A DNA stretch of 26,818 bases from a virus. Each line of letters opens with the position of its first letter. Position 1 is the stretch's first letter. The stretch spans positions 1 to 26,818 of IMG/VR virus record IMGVR_UViG_3300045967_000011. One strand, 5' to 3'. The notes beneath the pieces are model-generated. The model saw only the letters and a program-made list of their open reading frames with translations, searched no databases and was not told the DNA's origin. This document shows positions 10,680 through 23,962 of this stretch, piece after piece. The position numbers and the translations under genes were made by a program.

Positions 10680-10910
10680 TACGTCATGCCATACTAGCTC
10701 GCTGCCATATTCAGGATGGCCGTGTATAGCAAGCATGTCATCCATTGATGCCCATATGGCTGTTGATCGTCGCGCTGTCATCCAACGAATTGCAACGCTA
10801 CCATCATCAAACACGCAACCTTGAAACTGCGGTTGATCGGCAGGATTTTTCTGCTCGTCAGTGTGTGGTGCATTTGTCATGTCACGCCGATACATCGTAA
10901 AGCATCTCAT
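10671..10910 (-). CDS. 79-aa conserved small phage protein
   Basis: The start at 10910 (MRCFTMYRRDMTNAPHTDEQ) is preferred over an in-frame upstream ATG at 10952: it overlaps the polymerase stop as ATGA and has GGAG 8 bases upstream. The C-terminal half, VFDDGSVAIRWMTARRSTAI followed by a segment containing MLAIHGH and ending ELVWHDVLG, is a compact beta-rich domain. From memory it resembles small hypothetical proteins (FDDG.VA.RW...ST....S...M..IHGH) of phages and bacteria. The function is unknown. It is the last gene of the minus-strand operon. Its 3' end overlaps the 3' end of the late operon by 9 bases. Confidence 0.75.
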   Translation of the reverse strand: MRCFTMYRRDMTNAPHTDEQKNPADQPQFQGCVFDDGSVAIRWMTARRSTAIWASMDDMLAIHGHPEYGSELVWHDVLG

Positions 10911-13441
10911 TTGTGCAACTCCGTTTGCTTGATCTTCTTGATAGTTGACCAACGATGTACGCCGCCTTCGTCAGGCACACTGATACCGCATTCAGCAGGT
11001 ATGATTAGCTGCTTACCACCTATCAACAGCGGCGCTTCTGCGTGTTTCACCATGATGCGTAGCGCTTGCTTCGCTACATCTTTGCGAGCTATGCCTACTA
11101 GACCATCGTGCGTGTTGAGCGCGATGCGGGCGCGGCCTTTGGGCCACTTGTCATCGTCGTGGCACTTATAAATGACGCGGCATATGTGATCCCCTATAGT
11201 GGACTGTGGATAGAAGGCGACGATTGCTTCGGTACTTTCCTCCGTCACCGGAATTAATTGAACGTACCGCCTTCCGTAGGCGTTGTAGATGGCACGATCT
11301 TCTCGTACTCGGTTCAAGTCTGCCGTCCACCCGACTTTAAGCTCTGGCGTCAGCTTGTGGTACTTGACAAACGCTTCGCTTGCTGTAGATAGAGACAAGC
11401 CTGTTGTAAGTGCTAGACGATCAGGCATCATTCGGTAGTTAAGACCATGACGACATCTCTTTGCAATGTAGCGGATAGTCGGTTGCCCCGCCTTGTCAGG
11501 GACAAACTGAATGCCATCACGCTTCGCGGCGGCTTCGTCCAAGGGATAACGGTCGAAGGTGGGAACATCTGCATACGGTACGTTGAACATGTCACTGGCG
11601 AGAGCGCGGTGGCAGTCGTAGCTCCCATCACGGCGAGCGCGTTCAAACTGTTCAATCCATGTGCCGATGTTGTAGCGCCAGCCAACGACACGCGCCTCCG
11701 CTTGCGAGCCATCTATGTAAATAAAGCAGCATTCAGGGTCAGCTATGAACATCTCCTTCGCGCGGTCAGGGATGTTTTGCAGGTTGCCACCCGAACCCCA
11801 AAGCGTTTGAGCGCTTGACAGACGACCGGGCGCTGACTTGACGCCGGTTTGTCTGTAGTCACAACGCATACGGTCGTCGCTGTCAGGTTGTGCTGAAGCG
11901 TATACACTGTAGAACTTGTCATCTTCAATGTATGCGTCAACTGCATTAAGCACAGCGCGAGCGGCGGCTGATGTGCGTGGATGCTTACGCATTAGCTCCC
12001 GATTAGTAGCGTCGGTAGATGTACCGCGACCTACTAACTTTAGCTTACTGAAGTATAGCTCTGCCATCTGCTTAGGTGAGTTTGGATTTGGCGTGTAGGT
12101 TTGATCACCTACAGCATCGCGTGCTGCTGTGTAGAAGGCATTGAGCTTACGTTGTAGATCGTCGTATAGATTGCCGGGAGTGTTAACGTCGAGCATGCGA
12201 TGGCGCAGCGGCATGTCATTCAACACACCACCGACAGTCATCCACACTAGATGCGCTTGCAAACGCATTACATGCTCGAAGTAGAACTTGTCCAACTTCT
12301 GCTCGCGTAGCTCAGCAACGATCTTGCTATTGCTGGCAAGTGTAAGGGCGCAGTCCTTGCAGTTGTACGTCCAGTAATTGTCGATACCTCCAGTATGTCG
12401 CCATTCGTCCTTCTCATTCTTGTAGAACGGATGGGTAGTATACTGCTTGACGATGAAACCAAGATCGTGCGGCATGGTAGGGTATAGAACATGATGACCG
12501 AGCATTGTGTCAGAGTACGCTGGACGACAACGTATCTTATCCTTAAACCACAGCCACGCCATGTCGAAGCCGCCATTCTGCCACACCACGCGGACAGATG
12601 GTGTTGAATAAAGACGTTGGAGCGATCGACGTATTTGGATTTCTTCTGCTTTAGTGTAGACGTTTTCTTGTTCATTGCGGAACGCGATGCACATTGCTTC
12701 CTTCGCGGAGTGAGCGAGGCCAACGCACGCTGTTTCATTGCTGACCACTTCGATGTCACTGCCAATGGGGTCACGTGATGCTTGACAATGAGCAATGTAT
12801 GATATAGCTTCGGTCGCGGTTGGATTGATGATCGCGTTGACGACATGTGGTTTGAACTTTCCTAATATGACTGGCCGCAGCTTGTCGGCTATGTCCATGT
12901 CGAAGATGATGTGTGCCATTGGGTCACGTGCACAGAACGCAGGGTTAAATGTCGTTATACATTGTATACTACGATCCCCTACGTGGGCGTCCAATACGCT
13001 ACCACGCCAGTTCGTTATCCCCTTGCGCCCGCAGATGGCTTCAACTGCATAGTTACCTAACAGAAGAACATGCTTCAAGTTCGGAAGCTGACGTAGTTCC
13101 CACAGTAGAAGCTCCTGCCATGACGTTAGCTCATGCTTCCCAATTGGCCGACGAGTTGCGCTGTCGTGTACGTCAAATGCTACTTGACGCTTGGCAACGT
13201 TAGTGATGTAGCATTCGTGACGCTTGACTTCAGGACAATAGGTTCGGATAGACTTCCACAGTATGTTACCCGCACCGCCTATGAGCGGTACGCCTTGTGC
13301 TACTTCATTACGACCGGGAGCTTCAGCTACAACAGCGAGCGTTGCGCCGAGTGTACCGGACATAGCACATTCAACTTGCAAGCCAGCAGCTTGTGCCTGC
13401 AATGAGAATGCCTCTTTGAGTTCTGCTATTGTTGTGATCAT
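10907..13441 (-). CDS. Family A DNA polymerase with N-terminal UDG-like domain
   Basis: 844 aa from the ATG at 13441, chosen because it forms ATGA with the helicase stop (an ATG 15 bases earlier is possible). Residues about 30-185 look like the uracil-DNA-glycosylase superfamily: AEAPGRNEVAQGVPLIGGAG at 39-58, ITNVAKRQ, LLLGNYAVEAI and TFNPAF, where the usual His is Asn166. Residues about 225-375 form the 3'-5' exonuclease: DIE (229-231), NGGFD (289-293), YNCKD (359-363). The polymerase motifs are A, YIDGSQAEARVVG (Asp577); B, RYIAKRCRHGLNY (Arg657, Lys661, Tyr669); and C, NTHDGL (His778, Asp779), where the usual HDE is HDG. It replicates the phage DNA with proofreading. It also contains palindrome copies at 12955-12969 (exact) and 11900-11914 (one mismatch). 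Confidence 0.95.
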   Translation of the reverse strand: MITTIAELKEAFSLQAQAAGLQVECAMSGTLGATLAVVAEAPGRNEVAQGVPLIGGAGNILWKSIRTYCPEVKRHECYITNVAKRQVAFDVHDSATRRPIGKHELTSWQELLLWELRQLPNLKHVLLLGNYAVEAICGRKGITNWRGSVLDAHVGDRSIQCITTFNPAFCARDPMAHIIFDMDIADKLRPVILGKFKPHVVNAIINPTATEAISYIAHCQASRDPIGSDIEVVSNETACVGLAHSAKEAMCIAFRNEQENVYTKAEEIQIRRSLQRLYSTPSVRVVWQNGGFDMAWLWFKDKIRCRPAYSDTMLGHHVLYPTMPHDLGFIVKQYTTHPFYKNEKDEWRHTGGIDNYWTYNCKDCALTLASNSKIVAELREQKLDKFYFEHVMRLQAHLVWMTVGGVLNDMPLRHRMLDVNTPGNLYDDLQRKLNAFYTAARDAVGDQTYTPNPNSPKQMAELYFSKLKLVGRGTSTDATNRELMRKHPRTSAAARAVLNAVDAYIEDDKFYSVYASAQPDSDDRMRCDYRQTGVKSAPGRLSSAQTLWGSGGNLQNIPDRAKEMFIADPECCFIYIDGSQAEARVVGWRYNIGTWIEQFERARRDGSYDCHRALASDMFNVPYADVPTFDRYPLDEAAAKRDGIQFVPDKAGQPTIRYIAKRCRHGLNYRMMPDRLALTTGLSLSTASEAFVKYHKLTPELKVGWTADLNRVREDRAIYNAYGRRYVQLIPVTEESTEAIVAFYPQSTIGDHICRVIYKCHDDDKWPKGRARIALNTHDGLVGIARKDVAKQALRIMVKHAEAPLLIGGKQLIIPAECGISVPDEGGVHRWSTIKKIKQTELHK
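12955..12969. promoter_or_regulatory. Dispersed palindrome TTATACATTGTATAC (inside polymerase gene)
   Basis: Exact core within the part of the polymerase gene that codes for the UDG-like domain. Its position inside a gene argues for a transcription-blocking or DNA-structural role over a start-site operator. Confidence 0.6.
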
Positions 13442-14775
13442 TTCTTTCGCTTCCATCCGAGTGAGCGCAGTGATGTTGAATACGAACGTTGATCTGTGAG
13501 GATGGTGACTTGCTTTGCGGCGCGTGTTACTCCTGTGTAGAAGTTAGGACGGCTAAGGTTGAAGAACGCACATGATGCCATAGTATAGCATACTGTGTCG
13601 TACTGGCTACCTTGACACTTGTGCGTTGTGAGTGCGTATGCTAGCTCTATCACCTTTCGGGGATCGTAGTGAAAGTGATAACGCTTTCGCATATTGTATT
13701 CCTCAACACGCGGGGGTAGTTCAACAACTCTATCCCCGAAGTCGATTTCAAGTACGCCATACTCATCAATGTTGGTGATCCTACCAACCTCCCCATTGAG
13801 CATCTGCTTAGTCTCTGGACATGGTATGAATGTGCTAATGATACCGACGCCGTTAGCGTCGTACTCTCCGAAGCGTTCGTTGTAGTCGCGTAGATCGTAG
13901 CTATTAGTATTGCACACAACCTTGTCGCCAACGCTGACAAATACACGGTTCTTTGTCTCCCACTTATTGCGCGGCAGTTCGATCTTGCATGGCATGTGTG
14001 GATTGAAGCGAGCTTGCAAGATGCTATTCAATCGTATGGTGCCTATGTCTGACTTACGTGCCGGCGATACGATTTGATTGTTGAGACTACACCAGTCAAC
14101 GGACTTGTCGCTGTCGAGATAGTCATACAATGAGCGTAGCACAGCATCGTGCATAGTCACACGTACATCTTGATTAGCTGTGAAGAACAAGCCACGTGCT
14201 ATACGGCGAGCTACTTCGATAATGCCATTGCCTTCAGCTTGACGATAGATGTTCGCAAGCGTGAAGGTGTTAGGCATCTCTAAGCATTTCTTGAATGGCG
14301 ATGTTGGGTCAGCTAGATCAGTATTCTCGATAGGTGGCAGTTGTTGTATGTCACCAAATACACGCAAGCAACTGCCGGGACGCATGGCACTCACTAAGTC
14401 GCGGTGTAGACCTGTGCCTACCATCGCATACTCATCAGCGATGATGACATTGTGTGGCATTGGATTGTGTCGTGTATATCCCGGTTGACTGACAGATGTA
14501 GCTTCACCTGTCTCTTCGTCAAAGTCAGGGCGATTGAATGCAAGCAGCTTGTGTATAGTTGAAGCAGGATGGCCGGTTGCTTCGCGTATACGGCGAGCAG
14601 CTTTGCCTGTAGGTGCAGCTATAGCGTAGTCAATGCCACGCTCCTTGAGCGCGTCTGCAACCTGTTTGATAATGGTGGTTTTACCTGTGCCAGCTTCGCC
14701 AGTGACGGCGACTAGGCGTTTGCTAACGTCTGTGCACGTATCGACAGCACGTTGCTGTTCTGCGTCTAAGTTCAT
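13438..14775 (-). CDS. SF1B DNA helicase, RecD/Pif1-like
   Basis: 445 aa. The start at 14775 (MNLDAEQQRAVDTC) has GGAG 9 bases upstream; a longer frame to 14859 would cover an upstream hairpin region and is less likely. Motifs: Q-like DAEQQRAV; Walker A GEAGTGKTT (26-34); motif Ia AAPTGKAARRI; Walker B IIADEYAMV (Asp114, Glu115); motif III FGDIQQLPPI (140-149); a C-terminal UvrD_C_2-like motif LTTHKCQGSQ; and motif VI GVTRAAKQ. These are diagnostic of 5'-3' SF1B helicases of the RecD2/Dda type. It probably unwinds DNA for the polymerase encoded immediately downstream, with which it is translationally coupled (ATGA). It could also serve recombination with the nuclease and Sak4 genes upstream. 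Confidence 0.93.
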   Translation of the reverse strand: MNLDAEQQRAVDTCTDVSKRLVAVTGEAGTGKTTIIKQVADALKERGIDYAIAAPTGKAARRIREATGHPASTIHKLLAFNRPDFDEETGEATSVSQPGYTRHNPMPHNVIIADEYAMVGTGLHRDLVSAMRPGSCLRVFGDIQQLPPIENTDLADPTSPFKKCLEMPNTFTLANIYRQAEGNGIIEVARRIARGLFFTANQDVRVTMHDAVLRSLYDYLDSDKSVDWCSLNNQIVSPARKSDIGTIRLNSILQARFNPHMPCKIELPRNKWETKNRVFVSVGDKVVCNTNSYDLRDYNERFGEYDANGVGIISTFIPCPETKQMLNGEVGRITNIDEYGVLEIDFGDRVVELPPRVEEYNMRKRYHFHYDPRKVIELAYALTTHKCQGSQYDTVCYTMASCAFFNLSRPNFYTGVTRAAKQVTILTDQRSYSTSLRSLGWKRKK

Positions 14776-20523: not shown

Positions 20524-20943
20524 CTAGTGTTTCTTGTCAGACGATGAAGGTTGTTCTGCTATCAAGATGCTGCCATCAACGTACTCGATAACGTCGAATG
20601 CAGGACGCTCACCGACACGTGGCTTGACGAAATCGTGTTTTGCGAACGGCTCTGGCGGTCGCAATCCCTCAATGAGATTGCTGTTTTCAGGCAGCACGCA
20701 GATAGGCAGTAGTTTAGCCTTGTGCTTGATGTCGAGTATGTGAGCGCACAGCACATACACATATTGACCATCGCGTAGCGTTGTGAACTCGACAACTACT
20801 AAGTCACCTAACTCACATGCCATGAGCAGATGACGTAGAGATGTATTGACGCCAGCCGGTAGCGGCGTTTCACCGTTGCCTACACATTCAACCATGTAGT
20901 TCTCCCCTGTTTCGTCAATCAGAGGGTTTATTGGCTTGCTCAT
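20524..20943 (-). CDS. 139-aa protein, function unknown
   Basis: ATG at 20943, with AAGGA 8 bases upstream, overlapping the membrane-protein gene by 29 bases. The middle is beta-rich (ELGDLVVVEFTTLRDGQYVY, then VLCAHILDI), suggesting a small barrel. The tail is acidic and basic mixed (SSSDKKH). No family is recognised. A palindrome copy lies 20 bases before its start codon, so this gene may be a direct target of that regulator. Confidence 0.7.
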   Translation of the reverse strand: MSKPINPLIDETGENYMVECVGNGETPLPAGVNTSLRHLLMACELGDLVVVEFTTLRDGQYVYVLCAHILDIKHKAKLLPICVLPENSNLIEGLRPPEPFAKHDFVKPRVGERPAFDVIEYVDGSILIAEQPSSSDKKH

Positions 20944-21172
20944 CTTGTCGTTCCTTTATTCTTTTATACAGTGTATAACGCAGCTTACGCCTACCAGCTA
21001 CACGCTCGCAGTAGTCAGCAAATGGTTCTGCATAGTAACCTACTATGACACCTATTACTAAACCGCAGGTAAACGGGTAGTGATCAATAAGTCGTGATCC
21101 CCACCAATCCAACTCGATCCACATGCGGAGTTGGTGTAGTCTGAACGCTATCTCGTCGTATGCTTCATACAT
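20915..21172 (-). CDS. 85-aa single-span membrane protein
   Basis: The start at 21172 (MYEAYDEIAFRLHQLRMWIE) has no clear ribosome site. One membrane segment at about residues 33-52 (YPFTCGLVIGVIVGYYAEPF) is followed by a basic cytoplasmic tail (RRKLRYTLYKRIKERQDE). The palindrome at 20964-20978 codes for YTLYK within it. The function is unknown. Confidence 0.65.
   Translation of the reverse strand: MYEAYDEIAFRLHQLRMWIELDWWGSRLIDHYPFTCGLVIGVIVGYYAEPFADYCERVAGRRKLRYTLYKRIKERQDEQANKPSD
20964..20978. promoter_or_regulatory. Dispersed palindrome TTATACAGTGTATAA (operator candidate)
   Basis: Exact core, 20 bases upstream of the 139-aa gene start and inside the end of the 85-aa gene. No convincing -35 box at the right distance. 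Confidence 0.72.
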
Positions 21173-21231
21173 GAGAGTGGTAGGAGAGTGCGGTCTGTGT
21201 AGAGACTGCCAGCCACACCCTCCCCCTCACA

Positions 21232-21954
21232 CTACGCCGTTACAGGCGCAGGTGTAGTCTGCATAGCAGCTTCAGCCTTCTTACGCCTACGCATAAGCCA
21301 GCCTAGACCTGCCATACCACTACCGAACAACCACACTGCACCCGGTATAGGTACAGGTGGCGGGTTGTCAAACGGTGTTGGCGTGCCACCGCTCAAGTCA
21401 ACAAACCCTGTTCGTCCATTAGTACCTGATAAGATGTCAAGCACCATGAACGCTTGTGTGTCACCGGGAGGATTGCTCGACAGTTGAGCAAAGCTTGCCA
21501 GTGTTAGACCAGCACCACTGATACTGAAGGTGGTGTCGCCGGGACCATTGCCGCCGTTCCACGTACCTTCAATACCATATTCAAACAAGCCGAAGCCATC
21601 AGCAGTCAGTGCGCCAGCGTTTTGCTGGTTAACAGGTATCACACCGGGAATGCTGAAGAGCGGCGACAAGCCTGAGTAGGTGATGGTAGGATCACCGACA
21701 AGGTTAAAGCCAAAGACAACACCTTGACCTCCATTGGCGAAGTGATTGCCATTGAGGAAGTTGATGGCGATGTCAATAGTGCCATTGCCTTGATCGGTAG
21801 CTGTGATAGTCGCAAAGCCACTTGGCTGTGGACCACACAAGTCCGTACAGTGATCAGAACGGAACACGCCAGTTCCGACTGTCACTGCACTCGCTGCAGT
21901 TGTTGCAAGCGCGGCGAGCGACACCGCGATTGCCATGAGAGCTAGCTTTCTCAT
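21232..21954 (-). CDS. Secreted PEP-CTERM sorting-domain protein
   Basis: 240 aa, with a strong site AAGGAG 5 bases before ATG. The signal peptide MRKLALMAIAVSLAALATTA is followed by ASA (cleavage near residue 23). The mature part is Gly/Asn/Thr-rich and beta-strand-like (FATITATDQGNGTIDIAINF), with an SDHCTDLCGPQ cysteine pair. Near the C-terminus, PPPVPIPGAVWLFGSGMAGL is followed by GWLMRRRKKAEA: the PEP-CTERM tripartite tail (V-P-x-P, a hydrophobic span, an Arg/Lys cluster) cut by exosortase. About 12 residues follow the basic cluster, longer than usual. Such proteins belong to Gram-negative envelope and exopolysaccharide systems; a phage copy is unusual. The gene is isolated, with 59 and 153-bp gaps, like a moron. 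Confidence 0.85.
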   Translation of the reverse strand: MRKLALMAIAVSLAALATTAASAVTVGTGVFRSDHCTDLCGPQPSGFATITATDQGNGTIDIAINFLNGNHFANGGQGVVFGFNLVGDPTITYSGLSPLFSIPGVIPVNQQNAGALTADGFGLFEYGIEGTWNGGNGPGDTTFSISGAGLTLASFAQLSSNPPGDTQAFMVLDILSGTNGRTGFVDLSGGTPTPFDNPPPVPIPGAVWLFGSGMAGLGWLMRRRKKAEAAMQTTPAPVTA

Positions 21955-21987
21955 GTCTTCTCCTTATGCTGCTACTCAGTGATACAT

Positions 21988-22018
21988 CGCAACAAGTGTA
22001 GCAGCTTTACTCGTTGCG
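21988..22018 (-). other. Hairpin in the PEP-CTERM leader
   Basis: Arms CGCAACAAGT and ACTCGTTGCG (9 of 10 pairs) flank an 11-base loop, about 35 bases before the start codon. There is no U-tract, so it is more likely a leader structure than a terminator. Confidence 0.45.
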
Positions 22019-22022
22019 AATG

Positions 22023-22103
22023 TGGTGGAGGCTCACTGCAGTATGTGGCGTCAGAGGTCCACTGGTGGGAGACACAGGGACATGGCTACTACAGGAGCCT
22101 CCA
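22023..22103 (-). ncRNA. Structured non-coding element with tRNA-like ends (candidate)
   Basis: On the minus strand, TGGAGGCTC (22103-22095) and GAGCCTCCA (22034-22026) pair perfectly over 9 bp around 60 bases, and the 3' arm is followed by CCA, as at a tRNA 3' end (...A-CCA). An inner CCAC/GTGG repeat is present. The length from the first G to the discriminator base is 77, near tRNA size. However, I find no D-loop GG, no T-loop TTCRA and no proper anticodon arm, so it is not a canonical tRNA. It lies in the 153-bp gap between the GHKL gene and the PEP-CTERM gene, with no ORF. It could be a tRNA-like structure, a degenerate tRNA or a processing hairpin. Confidence 0.35.
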
Positions 22104-22107
22104 TAAG

Positions 22108-23343
22108 CTACTGATTACTCTCACTATGTTCGATTTGATAGACCTGTTCCATCAATGAAGCGCACTTGTCCACAAGAACATTCTGCATCTTGCGTGTGTG
22201 ATCTTCAAGCTCTTCGCTATAATGTAACCATTCTTCGTAGATGGTTCCGAGTATAGCAACTGGACCACGCTCGAAAGCTAACTTAGCGATGTATATCTTG
22301 CCATCACGTGTCAAGCCGAGTACATCGTCTGGCAAGCTGACACATAGATGCAGTACGTTATGTGTCACCATGATGTTGTGATGGTTCAACACCTTGATAG
22401 CATGATCGAGTTGCAAGCGCTCAAACTTGGTAGGCTTGTAGCGGTCGTATTGTTCGTCGAGCGGTCGCGTCTTGATGTACGTATCACGTGCCCACAACGG
22501 CATCGTCAGATGGTGTTCGACTAGGAACGCACACGCCTTGATGAAGTCAGCACTAGGTTCACGATAGCTAGGTTGTAGCTGGCTTTCATAGTACGATGAA
22601 TGAGCGATCTTCGGCAGATGCTCTACGAGTGCATCGTAGGTCATACCACGTATCCACAAGTCATAGATGTGCGACGAGATGTACCACGGATCAGCTAATG
22701 TACGATCTTCCGTGAGTTGCACCTTGTGTACATAGTCGTATGTGAAGTACGTAGGCTTCTCCGTCTTTGTACCTGTGTACATAGAGCGATAATAGATGAC
22801 GTTATCATCGTTGTGACGCTTCTCAACGCAACGGATTATCTTGTCGCTAGCAACAGCGTCAGCTTTGATGAAGTACTTGTCATGCTCCGCTGCAATTGCA
22901 ACAAGCTCATTCAACTCAACAATGACCATGACACTGCCCATGTTCTCGAACTCTTGCACAGGTGCATCGGTAGTCATTACACCGCCGCCTTCATCGAGTG
23001 CGTTGGTATATAGCTCACGGTATGCTTGCCACAGCTTCCAGTTAGCGCCTAAGTGAGTAGTGAATGGAAGCTCAAACTCCCTGTCAGTCGTCATGTCGTG
23101 TGCGTAGATGAAGTCGAACTCCTTGTCACGGAAGCTGCCCTTGTCTGTATAGAACACATATTTAGTTTCGGGCGTGATTACACTGATGTCTGCGCCATGT
23201 CTTAGCAACACAGACAAAGCGTATTTGAAGCCTGTGCCAAAGAAGCCAATAGCATTGTCGCTAGACTTAGCAGACAAGCCAAGCATAGTGAATGCACGGC
23301 GGTCGAGTGTGCCGTTGTTGTAGAAGATAACACGTGTAGTCAT
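22108..23343 (-). CDS. GHKL-type ATPase-like protein
   Basis: 411 aa, ATG with GGAG 7 bases upstream. The N-terminus NNGTLDRRAFTMLGLSAK followed by IGFFGTGFKYALSVLL (residues 32-47) matches the G1/G2 ATP-lid region of Bergerat-fold ATPases (Hsp90, gyrase B, MutL, histidine kinases). RELYTNALDEGG (Glu110, Asn114, Asp117) matches the N-box ExxxNAxD, but it comes after the G boxes, the reverse of the usual order. Near the C-terminus, IYEEWLHYSEEL (Glu371, His374) resembles a metal-binding helix. Phage ATP-binding proteins of this look exist, from memory, without a proven role; T4 rIIA also carries a GHKL-like domain. An early host-takeover or anti-defence ATPase is possible. Confidence 0.75.
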   Translation of the reverse strand: MTTRVIFYNNGTLDRRAFTMLGLSAKSSDNAIGFFGTGFKYALSVLLRHGADISVITPETKYVFYTDKGSFRDKEFDFIYAHDMTTDREFELPFTTHLGANWKLWQAYRELYTNALDEGGGVMTTDAPVQEFENMGSVMVIVELNELVAIAAEHDKYFIKADAVASDKIIRCVEKRHNDDNVIYYRSMYTGTKTEKPTYFTYDYVHKVQLTEDRTLADPWYISSHIYDLWIRGMTYDALVEHLPKIAHSSYYESQLQPSYREPSADFIKACAFLVEHHLTMPLWARDTYIKTRPLDEQYDRYKPTKFERLQLDHAIKVLNHHNIMVTHNVLHLCVSLPDDVLGLTRDGKIYIAKLAFERGPVAILGTIYEEWLHYSEELEDHTRKMQNVLVDKCASLMEQVYQIEHSESNQ

Positions 23344-23408: not shown

Positions 23409-23544
23409 ACTTGTAGCCAATAACTACGTCGATCTGCTCTAGCAACTCAGCTATAGCTTCACGATGACGCTGTTCCTCTTGAGCGACCGCTTCAAGCAGT
23501 TCACTCAAATTCTTCTGCGATTTAGCTGGTCTTCCGCGTGGCAT
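23398..23544 (-). CDS. 48-aa protein with AT-hook-like start and coiled coil
   Basis: The start at 23544 is fixed by AAGGAG 6 bases upstream; the frame upstream of it is not needed. It begins MPRGRPAKSQKNLSELLEAV: PRGRP is the core of an AT-hook, which binds the minor groove of AT-rich DNA. The rest is a Glu/Gln-rich helix (AQEEQRHREAIAELLEQIDV). It may dimerise and bind DNA. As a small DNA-binding early protein it is one candidate, among others, for binding the AT-rich palindromes. It overlaps the upstream gene by 23 bases. Confidence 0.65.
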   Translation of the reverse strand: MPRGRPAKSQKNLSELLEAVAQEEQRHREAIAELLEQIDVVIGYKFEP

Positions 23545-23962
23545 CTTGCTCTCCTTCAGTGCTACCGCCATTCTGCGGTAAGCGTTGTAGCAGGTTTTCA
23601 AGTTTAGCTACATCAGTGCTACTAACCTGCGGAGTTAGCACTGCTGTAGGACGATATGCAGCACGTTTAGCTTCCTCAATGGTGCTGCTTATGAGCGTTT
23701 GAATGTTGTTCAGGCGTGCTGTTAGCTCCGTACAGTAGCGCATGTAGTGATCACGCTCGACGGTGGCGGTCGCCAGCCTGCCTTCGAGTTGATTAGTGCG
23801 CTCGCGGAACAGAGCAAGTTCTGTCATCATGCGGTCGTTGTTGCGTAGTAGCTCATCACGCTGAACGACTATAGCATGTATAGCCTCAACGCCACGTGCT
23901 GCTGTTTCGTGCAGCGCATCAGCTACAGGTGTACTGTTGGCTTTACCGTTGGGTACGTTCAT
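23522..23962 (-). CDS. 146-aa coiled-coil protein
   Basis: ATG at 23962, with GGGGAG 8 bases upstream. Residues about 20-100 form a long coiled coil (QRDELLRNNDRMMTELALFR, then ERTNQLEGRLATATVERDHY). The C-terminus is Ser/Thr/Gly/Gln-rich. No enzyme motif. Overlaps of 20 and 23 bases with its neighbours show tight operon packing. The function is unknown. Confidence 0.7.
   Translation of the reverse strand: MNVPNGKANSTPVADALHETAARGVEAIHAIVVQRDELLRNNDRMMTELALFRERTNQLEGRLATATVERDHYMRYCTELTARLNNIQTLISSTIEEAKRAAYRPTAVLTPQVSSTDVAKLENLLQRLPQNGGSTEGEQDATRKTS

Follow-up and report, generated by a model that had tools for sequence, protein, structure and literature searches.

The window, a stretch of 26,818 nucleotides covering positions 1 to 26,818 of the IMG/VR virus record IMGVR_UViG_3300045967_000011, derives from a tailed phage, here called phage A. 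Its minus strand contains a gene for a 240-residue protein with a signal peptide and a C-terminal region of the PEP-CTERM type. PEP-CTERM is a tag by which bacteria direct their own proteins to their surface, and exosortase sorting is a bacterial system linked to exopolysaccharide and floc formation. The gene and its immediate surroundings comprise the following features:

20915..21172 (-), gene for a small single-helix membrane protein, a possible partner; a 38% homologue lies directly after the PEP-CTERM gene pair of phage C (see below)
21173..21231 (-), structured 3' gap with a hairpin (z -2.6 vs shuffles)
21232..21954 (-), PEP-CTERM-type gene of phage A, ATG start, 240 aa
21235..21276 (-), extra C-terminal tail of unusual length, residues 227-240
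21277..21354 (-), sorting signal, residues 201-226: VPIPGA motif, hydrophobic helix and RRRKK
21355..21885 (-), ectodomain, residues 24-200, with a CTDLC cysteine pair, mostly beta strands predicted (low-confidence model)
21886..21954 (-), signal peptide, residues 1-23 (MRK, hydrophobic core, ASA), from sequence and hydropathy
21960..21965 (-), Shine-Dalgarno site AAGGAG, 5 nt before the ATG
21960..22107 (-), structured 5' intergenic region with an inverted repeat at 21987-22019 (z -4.1; none of 200 shuffles folds equally well)

Architecture of the encoded protein

The signal peptide and the sorting-type tail, which an earlier, sequence-only reading of this DNA had pointed out, are confirmed by the open reading frame, its hydropathy and the order of its motifs. 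The predicted Sec-type signal peptide has a Kyte-Doolittle value of 2.13 across residues 4-20 and ends with ASA. At the other end of the protein, VPIPGAVWLFGSG is followed by the hydrophobic helix, RRRKK and AEAAMQTTPAPVTA. The segment VPIPGAVWLFGSGMAGLGWLMRRRKK begins at residue 201 and leaves 14 residues after it; the first A of AEAAMQTTPAPVTA is the last residue of the sorting signal, and 14 residues come after RRRKK. A PxP motif, a hydrophobic helix and a basic cluster are all present within residues 201-226, in the order found in PEP-CTERM proteins. The motif reads P-I-P, the VPxPxxWLF version, rather than a literal P-E-P, and isoleucine in place of the middle glutamate is also seen in many of 98 cellular tails. 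The ectodomain is probably beta-rich according to prediction. No related solved structure was retrieved for it by sequence search, and the structure model of the whole protein is poor (pLDDT 51).

Similarity to PEP-CTERM models and to cellular proteins

The curated PEP-CTERM models align exactly to the tail of the window protein, all of them below their own cut-offs: TIGR03370 gives 20.0 bits (cut-off 25.35; E 5e-4), TIGR02595 12.5 bits (cut-off 16) and PF07589 13.7 bits (cut-off 20.7). The FxDxF-family model NF038126 (cut-off 50 bits) does not match the protein, while floc_PepA (NF033554) matches weakly and in the C-terminal part only (10.8 bits, cut-off 80). A tail model built from the 98 cellular tails scores it at 50.1 bits (E 2.6e-14), whereas neither reversed decoys nor other, non-PEP ORFs did better than E 0.5; this test is partly circular, since these tails were collected by a profile including the phage family to which the window protein belongs.

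Full-length cellular relatives with the PEP-CTERM organization were found in Bradyrhizobium (L062), in a betaproteobacterial metagenome-assembled genome (L063) and in a further genome of the same class as the latter (L083); the matches of L062 (E 2e-9) and L083 (E 1.2e-12) cover nearly the full profile. A scan of genome contigs with the single window protein returned no relatives, and an alignment-based scan of such contigs returned two. Together with a 77% identical copy in another phage, the full-length cellular homologues indicate that the likeness to PEP-CTERM proteins is more than chance. The PEP-CTERM identity proposed at the outset therefore stands on architecture and homology and falls short on the models, TIGR02595 included, whose cut-offs are not reached; because of these scores, we name the protein PEP-CTERM-type by homology and not as a model-certified member.

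The phage profile matches 37 of 369 genomes in the class of L063 and 4 of 289 in the class of L062, many of them through the tail alone. Exosortase is present in 34 of the 41 matched genomes and in 6 of 19 unmatched ones, the latter being the first ones listed and not a random sample. An exosortase encoded by the phages themselves is ruled out for the 13 viral records searched (the window and 12 related ones), none of which contains PF09721. As anticipated from the window alone, the host enzyme would thus be needed, if the tag is used.

According to the model of Haft et al., exosortase cuts PEP-CTERM proteins near the motif (PMC1569441). The window protein resembles the cellular VPxPxxWLF type (TIGR02595, TIGR03370, PF07589; PMC1569441) in signal peptide, PxP motif, helix, basic cluster and ectodomain homology. 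It differs in being phage-encoded without an exosortase, in scoring under the cut-offs and in a tail about 14 residues longer.

Genetic context in phage A

The window gene is flanked on both sides by phage genes of the same strand, and this strand is also shared by the DNA polymerase, helicase, Sak4-type and nuclease genes. The gene is set apart from its neighbors by 153 nt on the upstream side and 59 nt on the downstream side, and both gaps are more structured than shuffled sequences. Hence its placement, its own ribosome site and its isolation by gaps and hairpins are as the sequence-only reading described them. A consensus search yielded no promoter of sigma-70 type upstream of the gene, and no RNA family was found near it. 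For the small membrane protein encoded downstream, the phage C homologue is the only one found.

The upstream gene (22108-23343, minus strand) matches phrog_8203, a family without assigned function, at E 4e-62. A GFFGTGFKYAL stretch in its product resembles, by eye only, the glycine box of GHKL ATPases.

Over 10.6 kb that include the PEP-CTERM gene, the window agrees at 99.99% identity with another record (L002/G001), which carries the phage A genome on as far as the genes for terminase and a P22-type portal. The composition of the gene is that of its phage: GC3 is 0.49, compared with 0.52 +/- 0.05 for phage A, and the codon usage of the copies in phages A and B is in each case closer to the own phage than to the other. 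No defence-system match was found for the gene.

Recurrence in other phages

Phage B is represented by four records (L003-L006) of up to 49 kb and 59% GC, all of which contain the gene internally. Its protein is 77-78% identical to the window protein, and the nucleotide match between phage B and the window is confined to the PEP-CTERM gene. At the protein level one further pair was detected, a coiled-coil-like early protein (window 23522-23962, minus strand) with 51% identity, the sole other protein common to both phages at the threshold used. Phage B is otherwise mostly unrelated to phage A. Between the two ectodomains pS equals 0.79 and pN 0.12; among the changed codons of the sorting core 7 are synonymous and 2 non-synonymous, and VPIPGAVWLFG is identical despite saturated synonymous change. 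This substitution pattern indicates that the window gene is under purifying selection.

Phage C (L031) carries a third member of the family, with 34-36% identity. In phages B and C alike, the tandem neighbor of the gene is a PEP-CTERM gene of the FxDxF family (NF038126) that exceeds the curated cut-off; the two genes overlap by 13 nt in phage C. The FxDxF partners of B, C, L074 and L076 reach 51.6-76.4 bits against the cut-off of 50; no FxDxF gene was found in phage A. In tail type and tandem location the FxDxF family matches the relatives that the window gene has in B and C, yet its ectodomain belongs to a different family from that of the window protein. The structure model of the FxDxF partner is moderate (pLDDT 69), and its best PDB neighbors are collagen-binding and CBM6-type beta-sandwiches (E 5e-3 to 1e-2), which is only a hint that the partner may bind a ligand.

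A search with the FxDxF partner recovered 20 viral loci. Combined with a scan for VPxP[GA]AxWLFGxG, it yielded one connected cluster of exported proteins on 18 distinct viral contigs, some linked by the ectodomain and others by the tail alone. Tandem or near-tandem pairs occur in phages B, C, D and H and in L065, L072, L073 and L074. The partners in D, L065 and L072 have DPHLSGTGDNV in common, and those in L073 and L074 share NPCIICGxNQ with a gene of phage E. FxDxF-family members retain the ectodomain but differ in the tail, which is of the VPLPxxWLF, VPEPATW (L074) or VPGPIVGAGLPGL type; the VPEPATW-tailed protein of L074 scores above the NF035944 and TIGR02595 cut-offs. Confirmation by hallmark genes covers phages A, B and D (terminase, portal, head-tail or tail genes), phage C (a phage primase and a virion protein) and L072 (terminase). 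No relatives of the window protein were detected in INPHARED phages or PLSDB plasmids. Overall, these sequence comparisons indicate that the window protein is no isolated example and belongs to a wide range of exported proteins encoded by phages, whose genes often form tandem pairs.

Three loci (L065:7995-8543, L069:74-643 and L072:7947-8480) combine the FxDxF ectodomain with a VPGPIVGAGLPGL...RRRR-type tail; a search of 240 alphaproteobacterial genomes for this tail (VPGPxVGAGLPGL) gave one chance-like match. Two more viral lineages (L058, L059, L060) carry one or two PEP-CTERM genes each among collinear neighbors, which include another signal-bearing protein, MKNILLT... The alphaproteobacterial tail motif VPEP[AS][ST]WxM occurs in at least 120 viral stretches (L181-L300), where at least 121 ORFs have it at most 45 residues from the C-terminus and at least 109 of these sequences have a signal-like start, a tally to be taken as a lead and not as a count, since host flanks and prophages are still included.

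The replication block of phage L076 is collinear with that of the window (exonuclease, Sak4, SSB-like, helicase and DNA polymerase; 27-43% identity), and its FxDxF PEP-CTERM gene sits between the helicase and polymerase genes, which overlap directly in the window. That distinct PEP-CTERM genes occupy distinct positions within a shared replication block indicates repeated gain, as for morons. The sporadic presence in related phages and the sharing between unrelated ones, both typical for morons, are seen in L076 and in the phage B copy. The moron-like character of the window gene is supported by its own ribosome site, the structured gaps, the phage B copy and the L076 contrast, although the consensus search gave it no promoter of its own.

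The long C-terminal tail

Tail length, counted from the first PxP through the C-terminus, is 40 residues for the window protein and 37-40 throughout the set of five proteins from phages A, B and C. The median of the 98 cellular tails is 26, about 14 fewer than in the window protein, and the unusual tail length noticed at first sight is thereby supported. Tails of at least 35 residues are found in 6 of 16 phage proteins and in just 2 of the 98 cellular ones (Fisher p 7e-5; the phage sequences are not mutually independent). The residues at the very end are not conserved in sequence between phages A and B, and many other phage PEP-CTERM proteins have tails of ordinary length. The long tail could hamper processing of the window protein. 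It may also be a trait of the host lineage, given the non-independence of the phage sequences and the greater average length of alphaproteobacterial-type tails in viral records (28-45).

Probable role of the window gene

We consider it fairly probable that the window gene is a moron whose product, sorted by the host exosortase, remodels the surface of the infected cell. The protein would be made during infection from its own ribosome site and exported by Sec, after which the C-terminal helix would hold it in the inner membrane with RRRKK inside. An assumed exosortase of the host would recognize VPIPGA and cut off the helix and tail, setting the ectodomain free to the outer surface or the exopolysaccharide layer. 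There, it would most likely alter the surface as offered to other phages or neighboring cells. We infer these steps, i.e., time of expression, export, cleavage, location and effect (superinfection exclusion, matrix), from the features described above.

Surface remodelling seems the most likely role in view of two known phenomena: in Zoogloea, exopolysaccharide retention on cells requires PEP-CTERM proteins (PMC9012009), and phage proteins that exclude other phages by surface change are well known (PMC10883804). Zoogloea PepA (floc_PepA, NF033554; PMC9012009) is a possible model of how the window protein works, although it is a cellular gene product with a weak C-terminal match only. With P22 GtrABC, P22 SieA and the HK97 gp15 moron (PMC10883804) the proposed common outcome is an envelope change through a small accessory phage gene; however, no exosortase tag is described for them in PMC10883804, and an exclusion role of the window protein is only proposed. 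Surface remodelling is favored by the phage B copy, purifying selection and cellular homologues, by the enrichment of exosortase in matched genomes with none in viral records, by sister phage proteins above curated cut-offs and the 18 linked viral contigs, by the different PEP-CTERM gene of L076, which lies at another position, and by the composition of the window gene, which fits its phage. It is weakened by scores under the cut-offs, the long tail and the lack of a solved relative or reliable model of the ectodomain.

The helix could instead be a mere anchor of an unprocessed membrane protein, whose periplasmic ectodomain would, e.g., block DNA entry of other phages. The low tail scores agree with this, as does the gene for a second membrane protein that comes next in phages A and C, but the strict identity of VPIPGAVWLFG between A and B exceeds the needs of an anchor and the partners score above sorting-domain cut-offs, so we find it unlikely. 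Quite unlikely, too, is a decoy or inhibitor which, poorly released owing to its long cytoplasmic tail, titrates the host exosortase, so that host PEP-CTERM proteins and their matrix are lost from the surface. The tail lengths in the A, B and C proteins fit such a function, whereas a mere decoy would not need an ectodomain under such strong purifying selection, the tail sequence is not conserved, and tails of ordinary length are found on many of the other PEP-CTERM proteins of phages. Genomes that have the system contain large numbers of cellular PEP-CTERM genes, and a passenger acquired from the host without function for the phage might be expected from this; purifying selection, repeated occurrence and phage-like composition make it very improbable. 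Finally, a misassembled host fragment, the objection that the sequence-only reading had itself raised and to which the cellular relatives lend some color, is hardly credible and was rejected in view of the nearly identical second record, the gene within all four phage B records and the phage-like composition.

Returning to surface remodelling by an exosortase-sorted moron product, the recurrence of such genes in unrelated phages suggests that phages borrow the host sorting machinery to change the surface. A wider proposal, which we put forward tentatively and with less than even confidence, is that proteobacterial tailed phages carry a recurrent, exchangeable tandem surface cassette with host-matched tails that takes the exosortase route, the long tail of the A, B and C proteins adding a function. 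Such a cassette would combine an FxDxF protein with one of at least three other families, keeping the ectodomains and suiting the sorting tail to the host. The sorting system itself is already known; what seems to be new is that phages use it, in tandem sets that recur; the open-access full-text literature searched holds no earlier report of phage-borne PEP-CTERM proteins. If conserved, recurrent phage-borne tagged proteins are real, they would form a direct link between infection and the surface and matrix that environmental proteobacteria display, and their genes would offer defined tools for testing how exosortase works and how phages control the cell surface.

Other features of the phage A genome

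No integrase was found among the matches listed (25 of 28 Pfam and 25 of 36 PHROG families), so phage A gives no sign of a temperate lifestyle on these families, and no tRNAs were found as a clue to the host. The DNA polymerase ORF (10907-13456, minus strand) seemingly begins with a uracil-DNA-glycosylase-like domain, followed by exonuclease and polymerase A domains; UDG, DNA_pol_A_exo1 and DNA_pol_A matched one member each, and placing all three on this ORF is our reading of the sequence. On the plus strand, an ORF at 52-474, at the window's opposite end, has the internal start MKRYLLALSAMTLALTATTEAMA and by eye looks like another exported protein, and a GNAT-type acetyltransferase (891-1463; PF00583, phrog_1249) is encoded among the virion-side genes.
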